From contig JAEEIU010000055.1 in NCBI GenBank assembly GCA_016281495.1, positions 17,957-81,956 on the forward strand: a stretch of 64,000 bases of DNA, read 5' to 3'. This DNA is from Treponema sp. (GTDB taxonomy: Bacteria > Spirochaetota > Spirochaetia > Treponematales > Treponemataceae). The position numbers were made by a program, and so were the translations under genes. Under the pieces are notes generated by a model that had not been told where the DNA came from, did no database searches, and saw only the letters and a program-made list of their open reading frames with translations. Positions 14,103-64,000 of the stretch are shown here, in pieces (the first letter of the stretch is position 1; each line of letters opens with the position of its first letter).

Positions 14103-15348
14103 GAATGTGCTTCACCAGAGCGCAACGGATTTACTTTCTGATGACATTGCAAAAAACTCATTGCCTCCGTCCATTTTACTTGCAGGTCCGGCAGGTTCTG
14201 GCAAACTTACAACCGCACTTGAACTTGCCCGAATCCTAAGCTGCACAAATTCCTCTGCTAAAGGAGCATGGAACTGTACATGTCAGGCATGCAGCAAACA
14301 CAAGGCCATGGTAAGCCAGTCAATGCTTTTGTGCGGACCTTCATCCAGAACACTTGAAATATCAGCTGCAAAGGCGACATTGCTTTCTCAGAATGCAAAT
14401 GCAACAAGCCATGTGGAGGCATCAAGATATCTTTACCTAAGGGCAGTAAGGAAACTCACGCTAAGATTTTCTCCAATACTTTGGGAAGGAGAAGACAAGC
14501 TTTCAAAATTCTCACCTATCCTTCAGTCAATTGACGAGAACCTTGAATATCTTGAACCAGGCAGAACACTTCCATCTGGAGAAGAGCTTGGCAAAATACT
14601 TGATGAAGTTGAAAAACTTACCTCAAAACTTGAATCAACCTATCTGTATCAAAGCCTTCCGGTCTCGCAGATAAGGAACATTTCTTCATGGGCGCATCTT
14701 AGCTCAACAAGCGGGAAAAAAGTCGTCATCATAGAAAATGCGGAAAAGATGGCAGACAGCCCAAGAAACGCACTTTTAAAAATACTAGAAGAACCTCCGG
14801 CCGACGTACTGTTTGTCCTTACAACTGAACAGAGAGGAGCCATTCTTCCCACAATACTTTCCAGAGTCAGGACCTATACTTTTTTTGACCGCACAAAAGA
14901 ACATCAGCAGGAAGTAATAAACAGGGTTTTCCATTATGACTCGGTATACCGTGGCAAAACGGTTCCAGACAGCATTAACGACTTCCTTCAGATATATCTT
15001 CCCGTTCATCCAGCTACAATTAAAAACAATGCCGTTGCATTCTTCAAGACGGTGGCACAAGGACATGTCCCTGACATTCCTGCCATCGTTTCTTCATGCG
15101 GCAATTTTGAGATAAAGGCCCTGTTCAAGCTCTTTATGGAAGACCTGATTTCTTTTCAGGCACCACTTGCCTCAAGTGCACAGGGAGCATCCGCTTCAGC
15201 CATGTTGATGGACACATTCAGGAAAATCTACAGCGACGTAATCCTCTACCGCCAAAAGCCCGCATCAGCACTAGAGGAACTTACACGGGAAATACTCCAC
15301 ATAAACCGGATGCACGGTGGAATCTTAAGGGAGACTTTTAATGAATGA
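14095..15348 (+). CDS. holB: DNA polymerase III delta'-like subunit (clamp-loader AAA+)
   Basis: SILLAGPAGSGKLTTALELARILSC, CTCQACSKH, SGKKVVIIENAEKMADSPRNALLKILEEPP. Confidence 0.85.
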   Translation: MFENVLHQSATDLLSDDIAKNSLPPSILLAGPAGSGKLTTALELARILSCTNSSAKGAWNCTCQACSKHKAMVSQSMLLCGPSSRTLEISAAKATLLSQNANATSHVEASRYLYLRAVRKLTLRFSPILWEGEDKLSKFSPILQSIDENLEYLEPGRTLPSGEELGKILDEVEKLTSKLESTYLYQSLPVSQIRNISSWAHLSSTSGKKVVIIENAEKMADSPRNALLKILEEPPADVLFVLTTEQRGAILPTILSRVRTYTFFDRTKEHQQEVINRVFHYDSVYRGKTVPDSINDFLQIYLPVHPATIKNNAVAFFKTVAQGHVPDIPAIVSSCGNFEIKALFKLFMEDLISFQAPLASSAQGASASAMLMDTFRKIYSDVILYRQKPASALEELTREILHINRMHGGILRETFNE

Positions 15349-16606
15349 CTTTGTAAAAAAAGCTTCACAAAAAATCTCCAAGCTTTCTCCGGAACAGCTG
15401 TCATCTTTTGTAAAGACACTCATCGGCGAAAAAGACAGGATGGATTCAATTCTTTCAAGTCTTTCCACAGGTCTCATAATCGTTGACTGTGACTGGAAGA
15501 TAATTGACCTGAACAAATCTGCCGAAAGGCTCATGCCGTTTTTAAATCACGGTGCGGACATAAAGGCGGATTCAGAACCTGTATGGACGCAAATTCTTGA
15601 CGCTGACATTTCCAATTACCTTAAAAAATGTGCGGAAGAAGACAGGACAAACGTAAATGAAGAATTTTCCATTCAGAACAACGACAGCTACAGGTTCATC
15701 ACTTTGACAGTCGTTCCCCTTGTAAAAAAAGAATGGAACGATGACGATGAGGTAACCGACACAACCATATCGGGTTCAATCATCACAATCGAAGACATAA
15801 CGGAAAAAAGGCAGCAGGAAATATTGCTCCACAGGATGGAAAGTCTTGCGAGCCTTACAAACCTAGCGGCATCAGTCGCTCACGAGATAAAAAATCCTCT
15901 TGGTGCCATAAGCATCCACATTCAGCTTCTTCAAAAAGCCGTTGCAAAGGCAAGAAAAACTGACGGTGCACTTCCTCCTGAAAAATTCATGGAGAACTAC
16001 ATCTCCGTAATCAACGAAGAAATCGACAACCTTAATAAAATTGTAGTTGACTTTTTGTTTGCCGTAAGGCCCGTTCAGGCAAACCTTCATCTTGTAAGCC
16101 CGGATGAACTTCTTTCCACATTCGTCCAGTTCTTTGGGCCGGAGCTGGAGAACAAGAACATTCAACTAAATACAAAACTTTCAGCAGGCAGTACAAGGCT
16201 TTTGCTTGACGAAAAACTATTCCGCGAAGTAATCATCAACATTACGCAGAATGCACTCTACGCTATTCAGGCCAGATATCCGGACAGGGAATCAAAACTT
16301 GGGGAAATCGCAATGGAATCATTCATAAAGAATGACTTCTATTACCTGACTATTGCCGACAACGGTTGCGGAATGGATTCAAAGACAGCAGAACACATCT
16401 TTGAGCCATACTACACCACCAAATCAAACGGCACTGGTCTTGGACTTACAACGGTTTACAAAATCATAAAGGAATTCCGCGGTGACATTGATGCAAAATC
16501 TGTACAGGACCATGGAACGGTTTTTACAATCAAGCTGCCGATACCTCAGAACAAGATAAAGCTCCTTGCAGATAATTCTAGTCTAAAAGAGGATAAACGC
16601 TCATGA
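15341..16606 (+). CDS. PAS-domain sensor histidine kinase (NtrB/AtoS-like)
   Basis: VAHEIKNPLGAISIHIQLL, ITQNALYAIQ, DNGCGMD, GTGLGLTTVYKIIKEFRGDI. Confidence 0.93.
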   Translation: MNDFVKKASQKISKLSPEQLSSFVKTLIGEKDRMDSILSSLSTGLIIVDCDWKIIDLNKSAERLMPFLNHGADIKADSEPVWTQILDADISNYLKKCAEEDRTNVNEEFSIQNNDSYRFITLTVVPLVKKEWNDDDEVTDTTISGSIITIEDITEKRQQEILLHRMESLASLTNLAASVAHEIKNPLGAISIHIQLLQKAVAKARKTDGALPPEKFMENYISVINEEIDNLNKIVVDFLFAVRPVQANLHLVSPDELLSTFVQFFGPELENKNIQLNTKLSAGSTRLLLDEKLFREVIINITQNALYAIQARYPDRESKLGEIAMESFIKNDFYYLTIADNGCGMDSKTAEHIFEPYYTTKSNGTGLGLTTVYKIIKEFRGDIDAKSVQDHGTVFTIKLPIPQNKIKLLADNSSLKEDKRS

Positions 16607-17964
16607 AATTCACACTCCTTATTATTGACGATGAAAAGAACATACGAGAAGGACTGGCCGCAAACTTTGAGCTTGAAGACTACAATGTAAAGACCGCCGC
16701 AACGGGAGAAGAAGGCCTTGCGCTTATTGAAAAGGGAGACATAGACCTCGTCATTACAGACCTTAGGATGCCGGGCATAAGCGGAGAACAGGTCCTTGCA
16801 AAGGTAAGTTCAGAAACACCGGGTATTCCCGTCATCATTCTTACAGGACACGGAAGCATAGACAGTGCGGTTGACGCAATGAGGCACGGAGCTTACGACT
16901 TTTTGACAAAGCCACTTAACCTTGACCAGCTTTCCTTAATCGTCAAGCGCGCTCTTGAAGGCAGGGAGATGAGCCTCCAGCATCAGCAGCTGAAAAAGGA
17001 GCTTGAAAGCAGCAATGCCCTTAGGGGAATGATAGGAACATCCCCCGCAATGCAGAAAGTGCAGGAACTCATAAAGAAAGTAGCCAACACGCGGGCCAAT
17101 GTCCTGATTACCGGGGAAAGCGGAGTTGGAAAGGAACTTGTTGCAAACGCCATCCACAATCTTTCTTCACGCAAGGACAAGAGCTTTATAAAAGTCCACT
17201 GTGCCGCATTGAGCGAGACGCTTTTGGAAAGTGAACTGTTCGGTCATGAAAAGGGAGCATTTACAGGTGCAGACAAAATGCAAAAGGGACGCTTTGAGCT
17301 TGCCCACGGTGGAACAATTTTTCTTGATGAAATCGGAGAGATAAACCAAAACGTTCAAATTAAAATCTTACGTGTCCTTCAGGAAAAGAAATTTGAGCGT
17401 GTGGGTGGAGAGCAGACAATCGAAGTTGACGTAAGGATAGTTGCCGCCACAAACCGCAATCTTGAGGAAGAAGTAAAGGCAGGCCGGTTCAGGGAAGACC
17501 TTTATTACAGACTGAACGTAATCCACATTCAGGTTCCGCCGCTTAGGGAAAGGAAAGAGGACATTCCGCTGCTTGTATCATCATTCCTGCAGGAGTTCAA
17601 TCAGGAAAACAGCAAGAGCATAAAATCCGTAGACAAACGGGCAAAGACGGCCCTATTCAATTACAGCTGGCCTGGAAACATCCGCGAATTGCGTAACTGT
17701 ATGGAAGCCGCAGTTGTTATGTGTAATGGAGAAGAGATTACCCAGGAGGATTTACCGCCAACGATAAGCTCCAGCAGTTCAGGTGAAAACATTGCCATAC
17801 CGCAGGGACTTACACTTGACGAGGCAGAAAAGATCATCATCCAGGAAACGCTTCTTGCAAATTCCAACAACAAAACGCGTACCGCAGAAATACTTGGAAT
17901 TGGAAGAAAGACTTTGCAGAGAAAGCTGGCCGAATGGGGAATAGAAGGAGAAGAGGCACCATAA
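16603..17964 (+). CDS. NtrC/AtoC-family sigma-54-dependent response regulator
   Basis: Receiver [15 protein letters not shown]+ [33 protein letters not shown]; Fis-type [27 protein letters not shown] overlap with kinase. Confidence 0.95.
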
Positions 17965-60227: not shown

Positions 60228-61205
60228 ATGATAAGCCTCTCACAGGAACAAATTGGTTCGTTTAAGTCTTTCGTTGACGCTCATGATTATTTTATTATCG
60301 CAGGACATAAGGAACCGGACGGGGACTGCATATCATCCTGTATGGGCATGTCGTTCATCCTTAAGCACCTGAACAAAAAGTATACAATGATAAACTCAGG
60401 TCCATTCAAGAGATCCGAGATAAAACAGTTCGCAAACCTTTTTTCCGACCAAAAACCCTCGCTTTACGGGAAACAAAAGCCTGCCCTCCTGATTGTGGAC
60501 TGCTGCGAGAATGAAAGGCTTGGAGATGTTGCCGCCGGACTGGAGGGACTGGACACTTTCATAATCGACCACCACAAAACCGCAGACGTAAAGGGGAAAA
60601 AGGCCATCATCGACCCCACCGCACCCGCAGCCGCACTTCTGGTTCAGCAGCTTTTTGAGGCCATAGTTGGGAAACCGACCCCTGAGGAAGCCCATGCCAT
60701 ATTCTTTGGAGTTGCGACAGATACAGGATTTTTCCATTACCTTAATCAATTTGACTCATCCGTTTTTGAGGCAGCCGCACGACTTACCGCTGCAGGAGTT
60801 AATCCACGAGATGTTTATCAGGAAATGACGGACGGTAAACCATGGAACACAAGAAAACTTCTTGCAATACTCCTGGACAGGGCAAAGAGATACTGTGGCG
60901 GAAAACTTGTCATAACCTATGAGGAACAGGCGGACACAAGAAGGTACGGGCAGGAAGGACGGGATTCGGATGCCCTATACTCCCTCATGCTTTCTACAGA
61001 GGGTGTTGAGGCCGTCGTGTTTTTGAGGCAGGAAAGCGATACAAAATGCACAGCGGGATTCCGTTCCCTTAACGACTGCGACGTAAGCCTTATAGCGTCA
61101 GGACTTGGAGGAGGTGGCCACAAGAATGCAAGCGGTGCAAGCATAGAAGGCCGTCTGGAGCTGATTATCCCCCACATCGTGCAGGAATTCGAGAAAGTTC
61201 TGTAA
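60228..61205 (+). CDS. DHH/DHHA1 phosphoesterase (NrnA-like)
   Basis: GHKEPDGDCISSCMG, DHHKTAD, DTGFFHY, GGGGHKNASGAS. Confidence 0.92.
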   Translation: MISLSQEQIGSFKSFVDAHDYFIIAGHKEPDGDCISSCMGMSFILKHLNKKYTMINSGPFKRSEIKQFANLFSDQKPSLYGKQKPALLIVDCCENERLGDVAAGLEGLDTFIIDHHKTADVKGKKAIIDPTAPAAALLVQQLFEAIVGKPTPEEAHAIFFGVATDTGFFHYLNQFDSSVFEAAARLTAAGVNPRDVYQEMTDGKPWNTRKLLAILLDRAKRYCGGKLVITYEEQADTRRYGQEGRDSDALYSLMLSTEGVEAVVFLRQESDTKCTAGFRSLNDCDVSLIASGLGGGGHKNASGASIEGRLELIIPHIVQEFEKVL

Positions 61206-61254
61206 GATTCTTACTAATCCTGTAATTTTCTTACAACTGTTGTAAGTTTCTTAC
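61202..61254 (+). promoter_or_regulatory. Three 20-bp-phased operator/UAS-like palindromes GTAAG-N3-CTTAC
   Basis: GTAAGATTCTTAC 61202-61214; GTAATTTTCTTAC 61222-61234; GTAAGTTTCTTAC 61242-61254. Confidence 0.7.
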
Positions 61255-61384
61255 AGAAAAACGGATGAATCTTCCAAAAAAATTCTTTGGCGAACAAGTG
61301 GCCATATTTTTTTCAATCAATCTTTCTCTTTACATTACAATGATTTACAAAGTTTTCTCTTTTTTTTCTTATATTTTTTTGAAT

Positions 61385-61400
61385 TGGCACATATCTTGCT
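61385..61400 (+). promoter_or_regulatory. Sigma-54 (-24/-12) promoter TGGCAC-N5-TTGCT
   Basis: ttGGcacatatcttGCt with the 12-bp GG-to-GC register of sigma-54 promoters. Confidence 0.7.
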
Positions 61401-61438
61401 TTACTCTAATTAAGTTTTATGAAAAAAGAGGGTATTTT

Positions 61439-62416
61439 ATGAAAGAACTTGAAAAGATGGCTCAGGATTTCCAGGAGAAGCGGATTGATGAGAAAACAGC
61501 GGTCAACAAGCTTGTTGAATTCATCTACAGGAACAAAACCTGGTTCGGCTTGAACAGGCTGAATGAAGATGACCTGCATGACTTCATGCTCAAGATGTTT
61601 CCGCTGTTCACAGGCATTTTCAACAGATATGACAGTTCAATAGGCACTTTCACCTGCTATCTGATTGGAAACATTATTCAGGCCTACCACGGATGGAAAA
61701 GGGGAAATGCAAGGCTTCAGATAAAAAGAAGGACACTTGAGGAGATTGAATGCCAGCGCTTAATGTCAAATGAATCAGGCAGATTCTCAGACAACACACT
61801 TTTTGTAAGCGACCTTCAGCTGTACCAGGAACACCCTGTTGAAGAAATAAAACGCATGGTCTCATATCATAAGGAATCAATTTCAAGGACCGAAATTACA
61901 AGGAAAGTCAAATCCATTGAAAAAATCAGGCAGGAAGCGGCACTCATCCTTATGGTAAAATCCTGGTATCTTGTGGATAATCATCTGCTGGAGAAAATTT
62001 CTGCCGTCACACAGGTTCCATCCAATTCATTGATTGAAATCCTGGATAAAACCAAAGACCTTATGGAAAGGAAAACAGACAAAATGAACTTTACCATGCT
62101 CAGCAGGGACAGAAGCTATTATTACAGGGAGCGTTACCGCATAGAAAGGGAAAGCCCTTACGGAATGAACCTGTCCATGACAATCAACCGCAAACGGAAC
62201 TTTCACTCAAAAAAATGGCATAAATTCAACAGGAGGCTTCAGGATCATAACCGGAGGCTTGTTCCCAGCAACAGAATTGTGGCACTTGTCCTTGGAATGG
62301 ATCAGCGCAGAGTTCAGTATGTTCTGGACAGAATAAACAAAAACATGGACATTCTGTCGTTAAACTGGTATTATGGCAGGCATGAAGATTTATTTGGCAA
62401 GCGGAAACTTGAATAA
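61439..62416 (+). CDS. Divergent sigma-70-region-2-like putative regulatory protein
   Basis: Start at MKELEKMAQDFQEK; EDDLHDFMLKMFPLFTGIFNRYDSSIGTFTCYLIGNIIQAYHGWKRGNARL resembles sigma region 2; C-term SNRIVALVLGMDQRRVQYVLDRINK resembles an HTH. Confidence 0.6.
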   Translation: MKELEKMAQDFQEKRIDEKTAVNKLVEFIYRNKTWFGLNRLNEDDLHDFMLKMFPLFTGIFNRYDSSIGTFTCYLIGNIIQAYHGWKRGNARLQIKRRTLEEIECQRLMSNESGRFSDNTLFVSDLQLYQEHPVEEIKRMVSYHKESISRTEITRKVKSIEKIRQEAALILMVKSWYLVDNHLLEKISAVTQVPSNSLIEILDKTKDLMERKTDKMNFTMLSRDRSYYYRERYRIERESPYGMNLSMTINRKRNFHSKKWHKFNRRLQDHNRRLVPSNRIVALVLGMDQRRVQYVLDRINKNMDILSLNWYYGRHEDLFGKRKLE

Positions 62417-63053
62417 AAAAAGGGAAATGTCAGAGATTTTTCCCGAACATACAATCGTAGTCCCAAAAGACGAGGGAATTGACTTTGATCCTGATGAGAC
62501 GGGAACCACATTCTACGAAAACAGCATAATCAAGGCTAAGGCCCTTTACGACATCGTAGGCTGTCCGGTTCTCGCCGATGACTCTGGAATCTGTGTAGAC
62601 GTGCTTGGCGGTGCACCGGGAATCTATTCCTCCCGCTATGCAGGCCCCGATTTCATGCACGGAAGGCCCGACGGAAAGAAAATTCCCCAGGAAGAGCAAA
62701 ACCGACTCCTTATCGAGCAAATGAACAAAGCCCTTGAAACATGTCCTGACCCGGGGAAAAATGCACCAAAGGGATTGTTTCCAAACGGTCCAAGGAGTGC
62801 CCGCTATGTATGTGCCATGGTGTTTTACCGAGGTCCCGGTCAGATTTATGTATGCCAGGACACAATGGAAGGCACCATAATCGAAAGGGCGGAAGATCAG
62901 AGGGGTGAAAACGGTTTCGGCTATGACCCGCTCTTTTTCCTACCCCAATATGGAAAAACCTCCGCAGAGATAAGTCCGGAAGAGAAAAATGCCATCAGCC
63001 ACAGGGGAAAGGCAGCTAGGGCAATAAAAATGATCATAGACTCAGTAATTTAA
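62382..63053 (+). CDS. rdgB: XTP/dITP pyrophosphatase (RdgB/HAM1)
   Basis: MKIYLASGNLNKKREMSEI, LADDSGICVDVLGGAPGIYSSRYAG, GENGFGYDPLFFLP; start at 62373 or 62382. Confidence 0.93.
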   Translation: MKIYLASGNLNKKREMSEIFPEHTIVVPKDEGIDFDPDETGTTFYENSIIKAKALYDIVGCPVLADDSGICVDVLGGAPGIYSSRYAGPDFMHGRPDGKKIPQEEQNRLLIEQMNKALETCPDPGKNAPKGLFPNGPRSARYVCAMVFYRGPGQIYVCQDTMEGTIIERAEDQRGENGFGYDPLFFLPQYGKTSAEISPEEKNAISHRGKAARAIKMIIDSVI

Positions 63054-63102: not shown

Positions 63103-63130
63103 TAAAGTTTGTATCATCATCCTCCGATAA
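63103..63130 (+). promoter_or_regulatory. Sigma-28 (FliA) promoter for flagellin
   Basis: TAAAGTTT (63103-63110)-N12-TCCGATAA (63123-63130), close to TAAAGTTT-N11-GCCGATAA. Confidence 0.85.
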
Positions 63131-63290: not shown

Positions 63291-64000
63291 ATGGTTATCA
63301 ATCACAACATGAGTGCAATGTTTGCACAGCGTTCAGAAGGTCTCACCGAAGTTAGCAATCAGAAGAACATGGAAAAACTCTCATCAGGCATGAGGATCAA
63401 CCGTGCAGGTGATGATGCTTCAGGTCTTGCCGTTTCAGAAAAAATGCGCAGCCAGATTCGTGGCTTGAACAAAGCTTCAGAAAACGCAAAGAACGGCATT
63501 TCATTCATCCAGACAACAGAAGGCTATCTGCAGGAAACAGAAGACATCATTCAGCGCATCCGCGAATTGGCTATCCAGTCAAGCAACGGTATCTACACTG
63601 ATGAAGACCGCATCATGATCCAGGTCGAAGTTTCTTCACTTATCGCAGAAGTTGACCGCGTCGCTTCACACGCACAGTTCAACGGTATGAACATGCTCAC
63701 AGGCCGCTTCGCACGCCCAACTGGAGAAAACAATGTAACAGCTTCTATGTGGCTCCACATCGGTGCCAACATGGACCAGAGGACACAGGTATTCATCGGT
63801 ACCATGTCTGCAGCTGCTCTTGGACTCCGCCAGGTTGGAACAGAAGAAATCATGACTCTTGCAACTCCAGACGAAGCAAACCGCGCAATCGGTACTTTGG
63901 ACGAAGCAATCAAGAAGATCAACAAGCAGCGCGCTGACCTTGGTGCATACCAGAACCGCCTTGAGATGACAGTTGTTGGACTTGACATCGGTGCAGAGAA
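63291..64000 (+). CDS. flaB: Flagellin FlaB, 3' end beyond window
   Basis: [66 protein letters not shown]. Confidence 0.97.

Follow-up and report, generated by a model that had tools for sequence, protein, structure and literature searches.

A candidate RpoN-driven gene for a sigma-70-like regulator, preceded by a phased operator-like block, in treponemes

Within the window, by which we mean the whole 64,000-nucleotide stretch of Treponema sp. DNA under analysis, a fast-evolving open reading frame for a 325-residue protein (61439-62416, plus strand) follows a cluster of short palindromes. It lies between a gene for an nrnA-like DHH/DHHA1 phosphoesterase (60228-61205, plus strand; Pfam DHH 3e-13 and DHHA1 2.4e-10; NCBIfam NrnA at 8e-26, which is below the cut-off) and the rdgB/Ham1 pyrophosphatase gene (62373-63053, plus strand; Pfam Ham1p_like 8e-53, and synteny). 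nrnA is the upstream neighbour of the gene in most relatives, and rdgB is its conserved downstream neighbour, with a listed start that overlaps the 3' end of the regulator ORF. A preliminary description of this locus proposed a switch controlled by sigma-54 and an enhancer, driving a sigma-factor-like protein in a cascade close to flaB.

The sigma-54 promoter and related sites in the genome

As a sigma-54 site we took a sequence with GG at -24 and GC at -12 in the consensus TGGCAC-N5-TTGCW. At 61385-61400 on the plus strand, exactly where the preliminary description had placed a promoter, the sequence TGGCACATATCTTGCT has both elements, agrees perfectly with the consensus, and is the sole perfect match to TGGCAC-N5-TTGCT in the window. 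Downstream of it are a Shine-Dalgarno-like AGAGGG (61427-61432, plus strand, a direct reading of the sequence) and the ATG at 61439, also as described. The gene for the cognate factor is present: rpoN was recognised by PF04552 at G000:C49:23661-24137 (E 5e-50), and 38 of the 39 genomes searched, the window's genome counted among them, carry it. In the 3.2-Mb genome TGGCACN5TTGCT occurs four times (control: 0 and 1), and each of the four sites precedes a plausible gene, 54-81 bp before its ATG.

Comparison across the family Treponemataceae revealed a -24/-12 site scoring at least 11 of 12 upstream of the regulator homologue in 76 of 90 loci, and 42 of these 76 sites are perfect. At the same score none was found in equal downstream windows (0/90) or on the reverse strand (0/90). 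The GG/GC elements are thus kept in relatives, a check that the preliminary description had itself named. Since the protein is highly divergent, most homologues being 20-35% identical to that of the window, recent DNA ancestry is an unlikely reason for the conservation of the promoter. In the nearest relative, G178, the promoter is 83% identical. Outside the family, 20 of 40 loci of the order have a promoter-like site with a score of at least 10, in a 500-bp window and at this looser threshold. No recognisable site precedes the homologues of one clade (L154, L155, L156, L158 and L098), nor those at most loci of family f5. These patterns very strongly support a sigma-54 promoter at 61385-61400, and RpoN is predicted to transcribe the 325-residue gene.

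The other three perfect sites in the genome precede two sigma-70 genes and one hsp20 gene. The sigma-70 genes, here called sigA and sigB (L011 1501-2378 and L013 1501-2396), encode proteins of 269 and 279 residues that match Sigma70 regions 1.2 to 4. Strong sigma-54 sites precede their orthologues too (22 of 26 and 22 of 25), so RpoN seems to act upstream of several sigma-like genes. The small heat-shock gene of the Hsp20 type has its perfect site at L012 (C31:69227-69242, minus strand). A TGTATA/GTATACA motif is conserved upstream of sigB in most genomes, and repeated 6-mers in the sigA/sigB upstream regions (L203-L253) peak at lag 40 (31 counts).

The proposed link to flaB was not supported. 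flaB starts at 63291, past the intervening rdgB, and by eye has a sigma-28-like promoter of its own, TAAAGTTT-N12-TCCGATAA at 63103-63130; a tie to the regulator gene is not needed. Judged by size and match, a FliA-like sigma is probably encoded in this genome.

The operator-like block and its phased counterparts

The preliminary description had reported three GTAAG-N3-CTTAC palindromes repeated at exactly 20 bp. Their positions and spacing were borne out, and the first (61202, GTAAGATTCTTAC) and third (61242, GTAAGTTTCTTAC) are exact; the middle one (61222, GTAATTTTCTTAC) has one mismatch and reads GTAAT-N3-CTTAC, with GTAAT and not GTAAG. Across the 3.2-Mb genome the pattern GTAAKNNNCTTAC is found at 9 places, and three of these fall within 53 bp at this locus. 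The reversed control pattern is about as frequent genome-wide, so it is the clustering, not the motif, that exceeds chance. Elsewhere in the genome there are six GTAAK-N3-CTTAC places, of which two were inspected (L004 and L009), and both are intragenic. Read in tens, the block at 61201-61256 (no strand assigned) is TGTAAGATTC TTACTAATCC TGTAATTTTC TTACAACTGT TGTAAGTTTC TTACAG, that is, six half-sites in a 10-bp register, one per helical turn, which make up the three palindromes. The nrnA stop codon (61203-61205) falls inside the first of them. Against G178, the nearest relative with 55% protein identity and the one genome on which the palindrome comparison at fixed distance rests, 45 of the 56 block positions are identical (80%). 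The AT-rich spacer between block and promoter (61257-61384, likewise without strand) is poorly conserved, with 63 of 120 positions identical (53%). From the first half-site to the promoter it is 184 bp in the window and 185 bp in G178. The palindromes are thus kept in a close relative, as the preliminary description had called for, and the block is probably bound by a protein.

The window palindromes are part of a wider pattern of 10-bp phased arrays upstream of regulator homologues. When all loci are taken together, 6-mers that recur ahead of the promoter do so most often at lags of 10, 20-21, 30-31 and 41 bp, with 101 lag-10 repeats observed versus 12 expected. At lag 10, 16 of 87 loci exceed z>3, compared with 0 of 180 control windows, which are coding rather than intergenic; among the 44 sigA/sigB upstream regions, which form an intergenic control, there is none at either lag 10 or lag 11. 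Several of the 16 loci share ancestry, so the independent cases are fewer, and the window's own block, with z 2.9 at lag 10, falls just under the threshold. Repeat-rich upstream regions, with spacings of 10, 20 and 30 bp, are seen in about a quarter of species, and their sequence differs from one species to another, with units such as GTTGGATTTT, TGCAAGATTT, GTCAGATTT and CTAGTCAAAT among others. Clear arrays are confined to about one locus in four, so the operator is not a requirement throughout the species. The GTTGG-type unit GTTGGATTTYGTTGGATT has 8 matches in 195 genomes, every one at the regulator locus, for which reason we rejected the arrays as a genome-wide regulon motif. A role as a general sigma-54 enhancer was rejected as well, given that no arrays precede the sigA and sigB promoters.

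Candidate readers of the block

The GAFTGA activator named in the preliminary description does exist, as an NtrC/AtoC-type protein with receiver, AAA+ and Fis HTH domains (16603-17964, plus strand). An ORF that overlaps its start (15341-16606, plus strand), read by eye as a histidine kinase, encodes its probable partner. Three proteins of the genome carry the Sigma54_activat domain PF00158 at E<1e-58, two of them with a Fis-type HTH, and a GAF-type bEBP lies at C36:25740. A GAF-type sigma-54 activator at L053 1027-2583 has GAYTNA replacing GAFTGA. At L054 1264-2379 there is a GAFTGA activator that has no recognised C-terminal HTH and is adjoined, by eye, by a glycosyltransferase-like ORF; it is possibly enhancer-independent.

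The preliminary description had cast the 16603 regulator as reader of the palindromes. This protein is 62-94% conserved, and its recognition helix is nearly invariant, with small changes, across species whose arrays are unlike one another, which speaks against such a role. As a mark of an upstream activating sequence we looked for site sequences that track the HTH of the activator, and for the 16603 activator no such tracking was found. The 16603 protein is thus a candidate energiser of the promoter and a doubtful reader of the block. More broadly, the palindromes could be the enhancer of a bEBP encoded in the genome itself, be it 16603 or the GAF-type protein at C36:25740, with dimer binding and looping and nothing further needed. 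Their palindromic form and distance fit an NtrC-type UAS, enhancers about 100-150 bp upstream are usual (PMC3037356), and the genome is supplied with the activators listed above. Besides the constant helix of 16603, this reading has against it the lack of arrays before sigA and sigB, and the conserved TGTATA-type motif of sigB is the very pattern expected for a conserved activator. Tandem duplication could still homogenise arrays under one and the same reader, and the HTH comparison was confined to 16603. On balance we consider it rather unlikely that a bEBP alone accounts for the block. Autoregulation, with the C-terminal HTH of the product recognising the repeats ahead of its own gene and the two co-evolving, would explain why protein and repeats both evolve fast and why the repeat occurs nowhere but at this locus. 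Yet the same TGCAAG-type array precedes proteins with unlike HTHs, and repeat similarity showed no correlation with HTH identity once the remainder of the protein was controlled for (partial Mantel test, rho -0.05, p 0.89). As many loci lack a clear array, the test is noisy; self-binding as the cause of repeat diversity was rejected for want of signal, and we regard autoregulation as improbable.

Two further readings dispense with a specific DNA reader. Phased T-tracts could bend the DNA intrinsically and so aid looping at the promoter, and a strong 10-10.5-bp TTT/AAA period is indeed present in L102, L086, L117, L038, L133 and L119. It is absent from L016/L017 and from the window's block, where 0.33 of shuffles score as high, so that T-tract bending was rejected for the window's own block, and several arrays show periodicity in the non-T letters of their units as well. 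As a general account, bending is quite improbable. The block might instead act in RNA, as a hairpin for processing or stability at the 3' end of the nrnA mRNA, unrelated to the promoter. It overlaps the nrnA stop codon, its three palindromes fold at -21.5 kcal/mol (z -5.07), and the array loci L133, L016, L017 and L031 also fold better than shuffles. Against this stand the arrays of L102, L131, L124 and L036, for which RNA structure is not clearly in excess, and the phasing at 10, 20, 30 and 40 bp, which is the geometry of the DNA helix. The block has no T-run, no terminator was called there, by which a terminator was rejected, and an Rfam search gave no match. We hold the hairpin to be very improbable as the function of the block.

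The regulator family and the proposed switch

Homologues of the regulator occur in 170 of 195 Treponemataceae genomes, nearly always as a single copy, and in 107 of 119 genomes of the order, where the gene is often still between nrnA and rdgB. The 325-residue protein consists of an N-terminal region-2-like helical domain, a poorly ordered linker, an HTH-like middle part and a C-terminal HTH (PSNxxIAxxLGIxxRxV). The window protein itself has no Pfam or NCBIfam match, was not picked up by a Sigma70_r2 search of the genome, and found no match when used alone to search the genome contigs. Among 37 homologues the best matches are HTH_36 (7e-6), GerE (4.5e-4), Sigma70_r4_2 (0.0085) and Sigma70_r2 (0.018); by the curated Sigma70_r2/r4 thresholds the window protein has 0 matches, and the homologues reach at best the last two of these values. 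In a profile comparison sigma-70 region 2 scored 24.6, against 11-15.5 for unrelated families in a small null (n=3), and the motif Y-x4-G-x-F-x2-Y near the N-terminus lines up with sigma region 2. Foldseek searches with two AlphaFold (AF2) models (pLDDT 79 and 81.5) ranked sigmaE first for one (prob 0.63, E 0.95) and second for the other, and listed T4 gp55 for the second model (prob 0.75, E 1.6); neither model had a match at E<0.1. A profile search of the PDB and a search of a viral fold library yielded chance and generic HTH matches only.

Of the "divergent sigma or anti-sigma" factor proposed in the preliminary description, the sigma likeness is suggestive, on weak profile and fold matches; the anti-sigma half has no support, since neither an anti-sigma domain nor an adjacent cognate sigma was found, the neighbours being nrnA and rdgB. 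We thus call the product sigma-like and not a sigma factor; it may work with RNA polymerase. We give somewhat less than even odds to the view that the product is a conventional HTH regulator whose N-terminal domain is helical: the C-terminal HTH best matches generic families (HTH_36 and GerE) and the fold matches are not significant, whereas the alignment of the N-terminal motif on sigma region 2 points the other way.

The promoter motif and its conservation, the conservation and phasing of the operator, and the protein family are established here by computation. They enable us to propose a putative model, to which as a whole we assign a rough probability of 0.62. RpoN-RNA polymerase would bind at 61385-61400, and an AAA+ activator, one of the three in the genome, would remodel it to yield the mRNA of the 325-residue protein. 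The block at 61201-61256 would serve as an operator or enhancer private to the regulator gene. About 130-185 bp upstream of the promoter, a DNA-binding protein would occupy its half-sites once per helical turn and gate the promoter through cooperation or looping. The product would be a sigma-70-like regulator that combines a region-2-like domain with a DNA-binding HTH and redirects transcription, and RpoN would control at least three sigma-type genes in these spirochaetes, this one included. A bolder form of the model is unlikely, in our estimate: an order-wide new class of sigma under RpoN, gated by a new kind of gene-private enhancer of phased half-sites, whose letters are replaced between species while the 10-bp geometry stays, and which a cooperative DNA-binding protein would read. 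Arrays with changing letters and constant spacing offer a clean test case for the turnover of enhancer sequence with function kept, and the regulator is a conserved, unannotated protein with one copy in most genomes of the order.

Among open-licence literature we found no paper on a cascade from RpoN to a sigma factor in Treponema. In the Rrp2-RpoN-RpoS pathway of Borrelia burgdorferi the gene of a sigma factor is under the direct control of a sigma-54 promoter, and an extra DNA-binding protein, BosR, is reported to use short direct repeats of the sequence TAAATTAAAT close to that promoter (PMC3037356, PMC2940757). The treponeme locus likewise has a spirochaete sigma-54 promoter before a sigma-type gene and short repeats nearby. 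The Borrelia target is a clear RpoS, whereas the treponeme targets are an unannotated, fast-evolving sigma-like protein and two sigma-70 genes; the BosR repeat occurs at many genes, whereas the treponeme repeats are phased at 10 bp and variable between species, and the one unit searched for is confined to the locus. In the EbpA/EbpB-RpoN system of Leptospira, as in the treponemes, a spirochaete RpoN is accompanied by activators of the GAF type and the receiver type, but its described targets, amtB and lipoprotein genes (PMC12655853), are not sigma factors. Like an NtrC-type UAS, the treponeme block is palindromic and lies about 130-185 bp upstream of the -24/-12 elements; unlike one, it has at least six half-sites in a 10-bp register, and its sequence varies though the HTH of 16603 is conserved. 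The product resembles group 4 (ECF) sigma-70 factors in having a region-2-like helical domain, a linker and an HTH domain, with sigmaE among its top Foldseek matches, and differs from them in its 325-residue length, its additional HTH-like middle part and its scores below every curated threshold. The findings suggest that the RpoN-to-sigma cascade of Borrelia is more widespread and more elaborate among spirochaetes; in treponemes it would have three or more sigma-type targets, and this known type of cascade would gain an unannotated member and a further control element.
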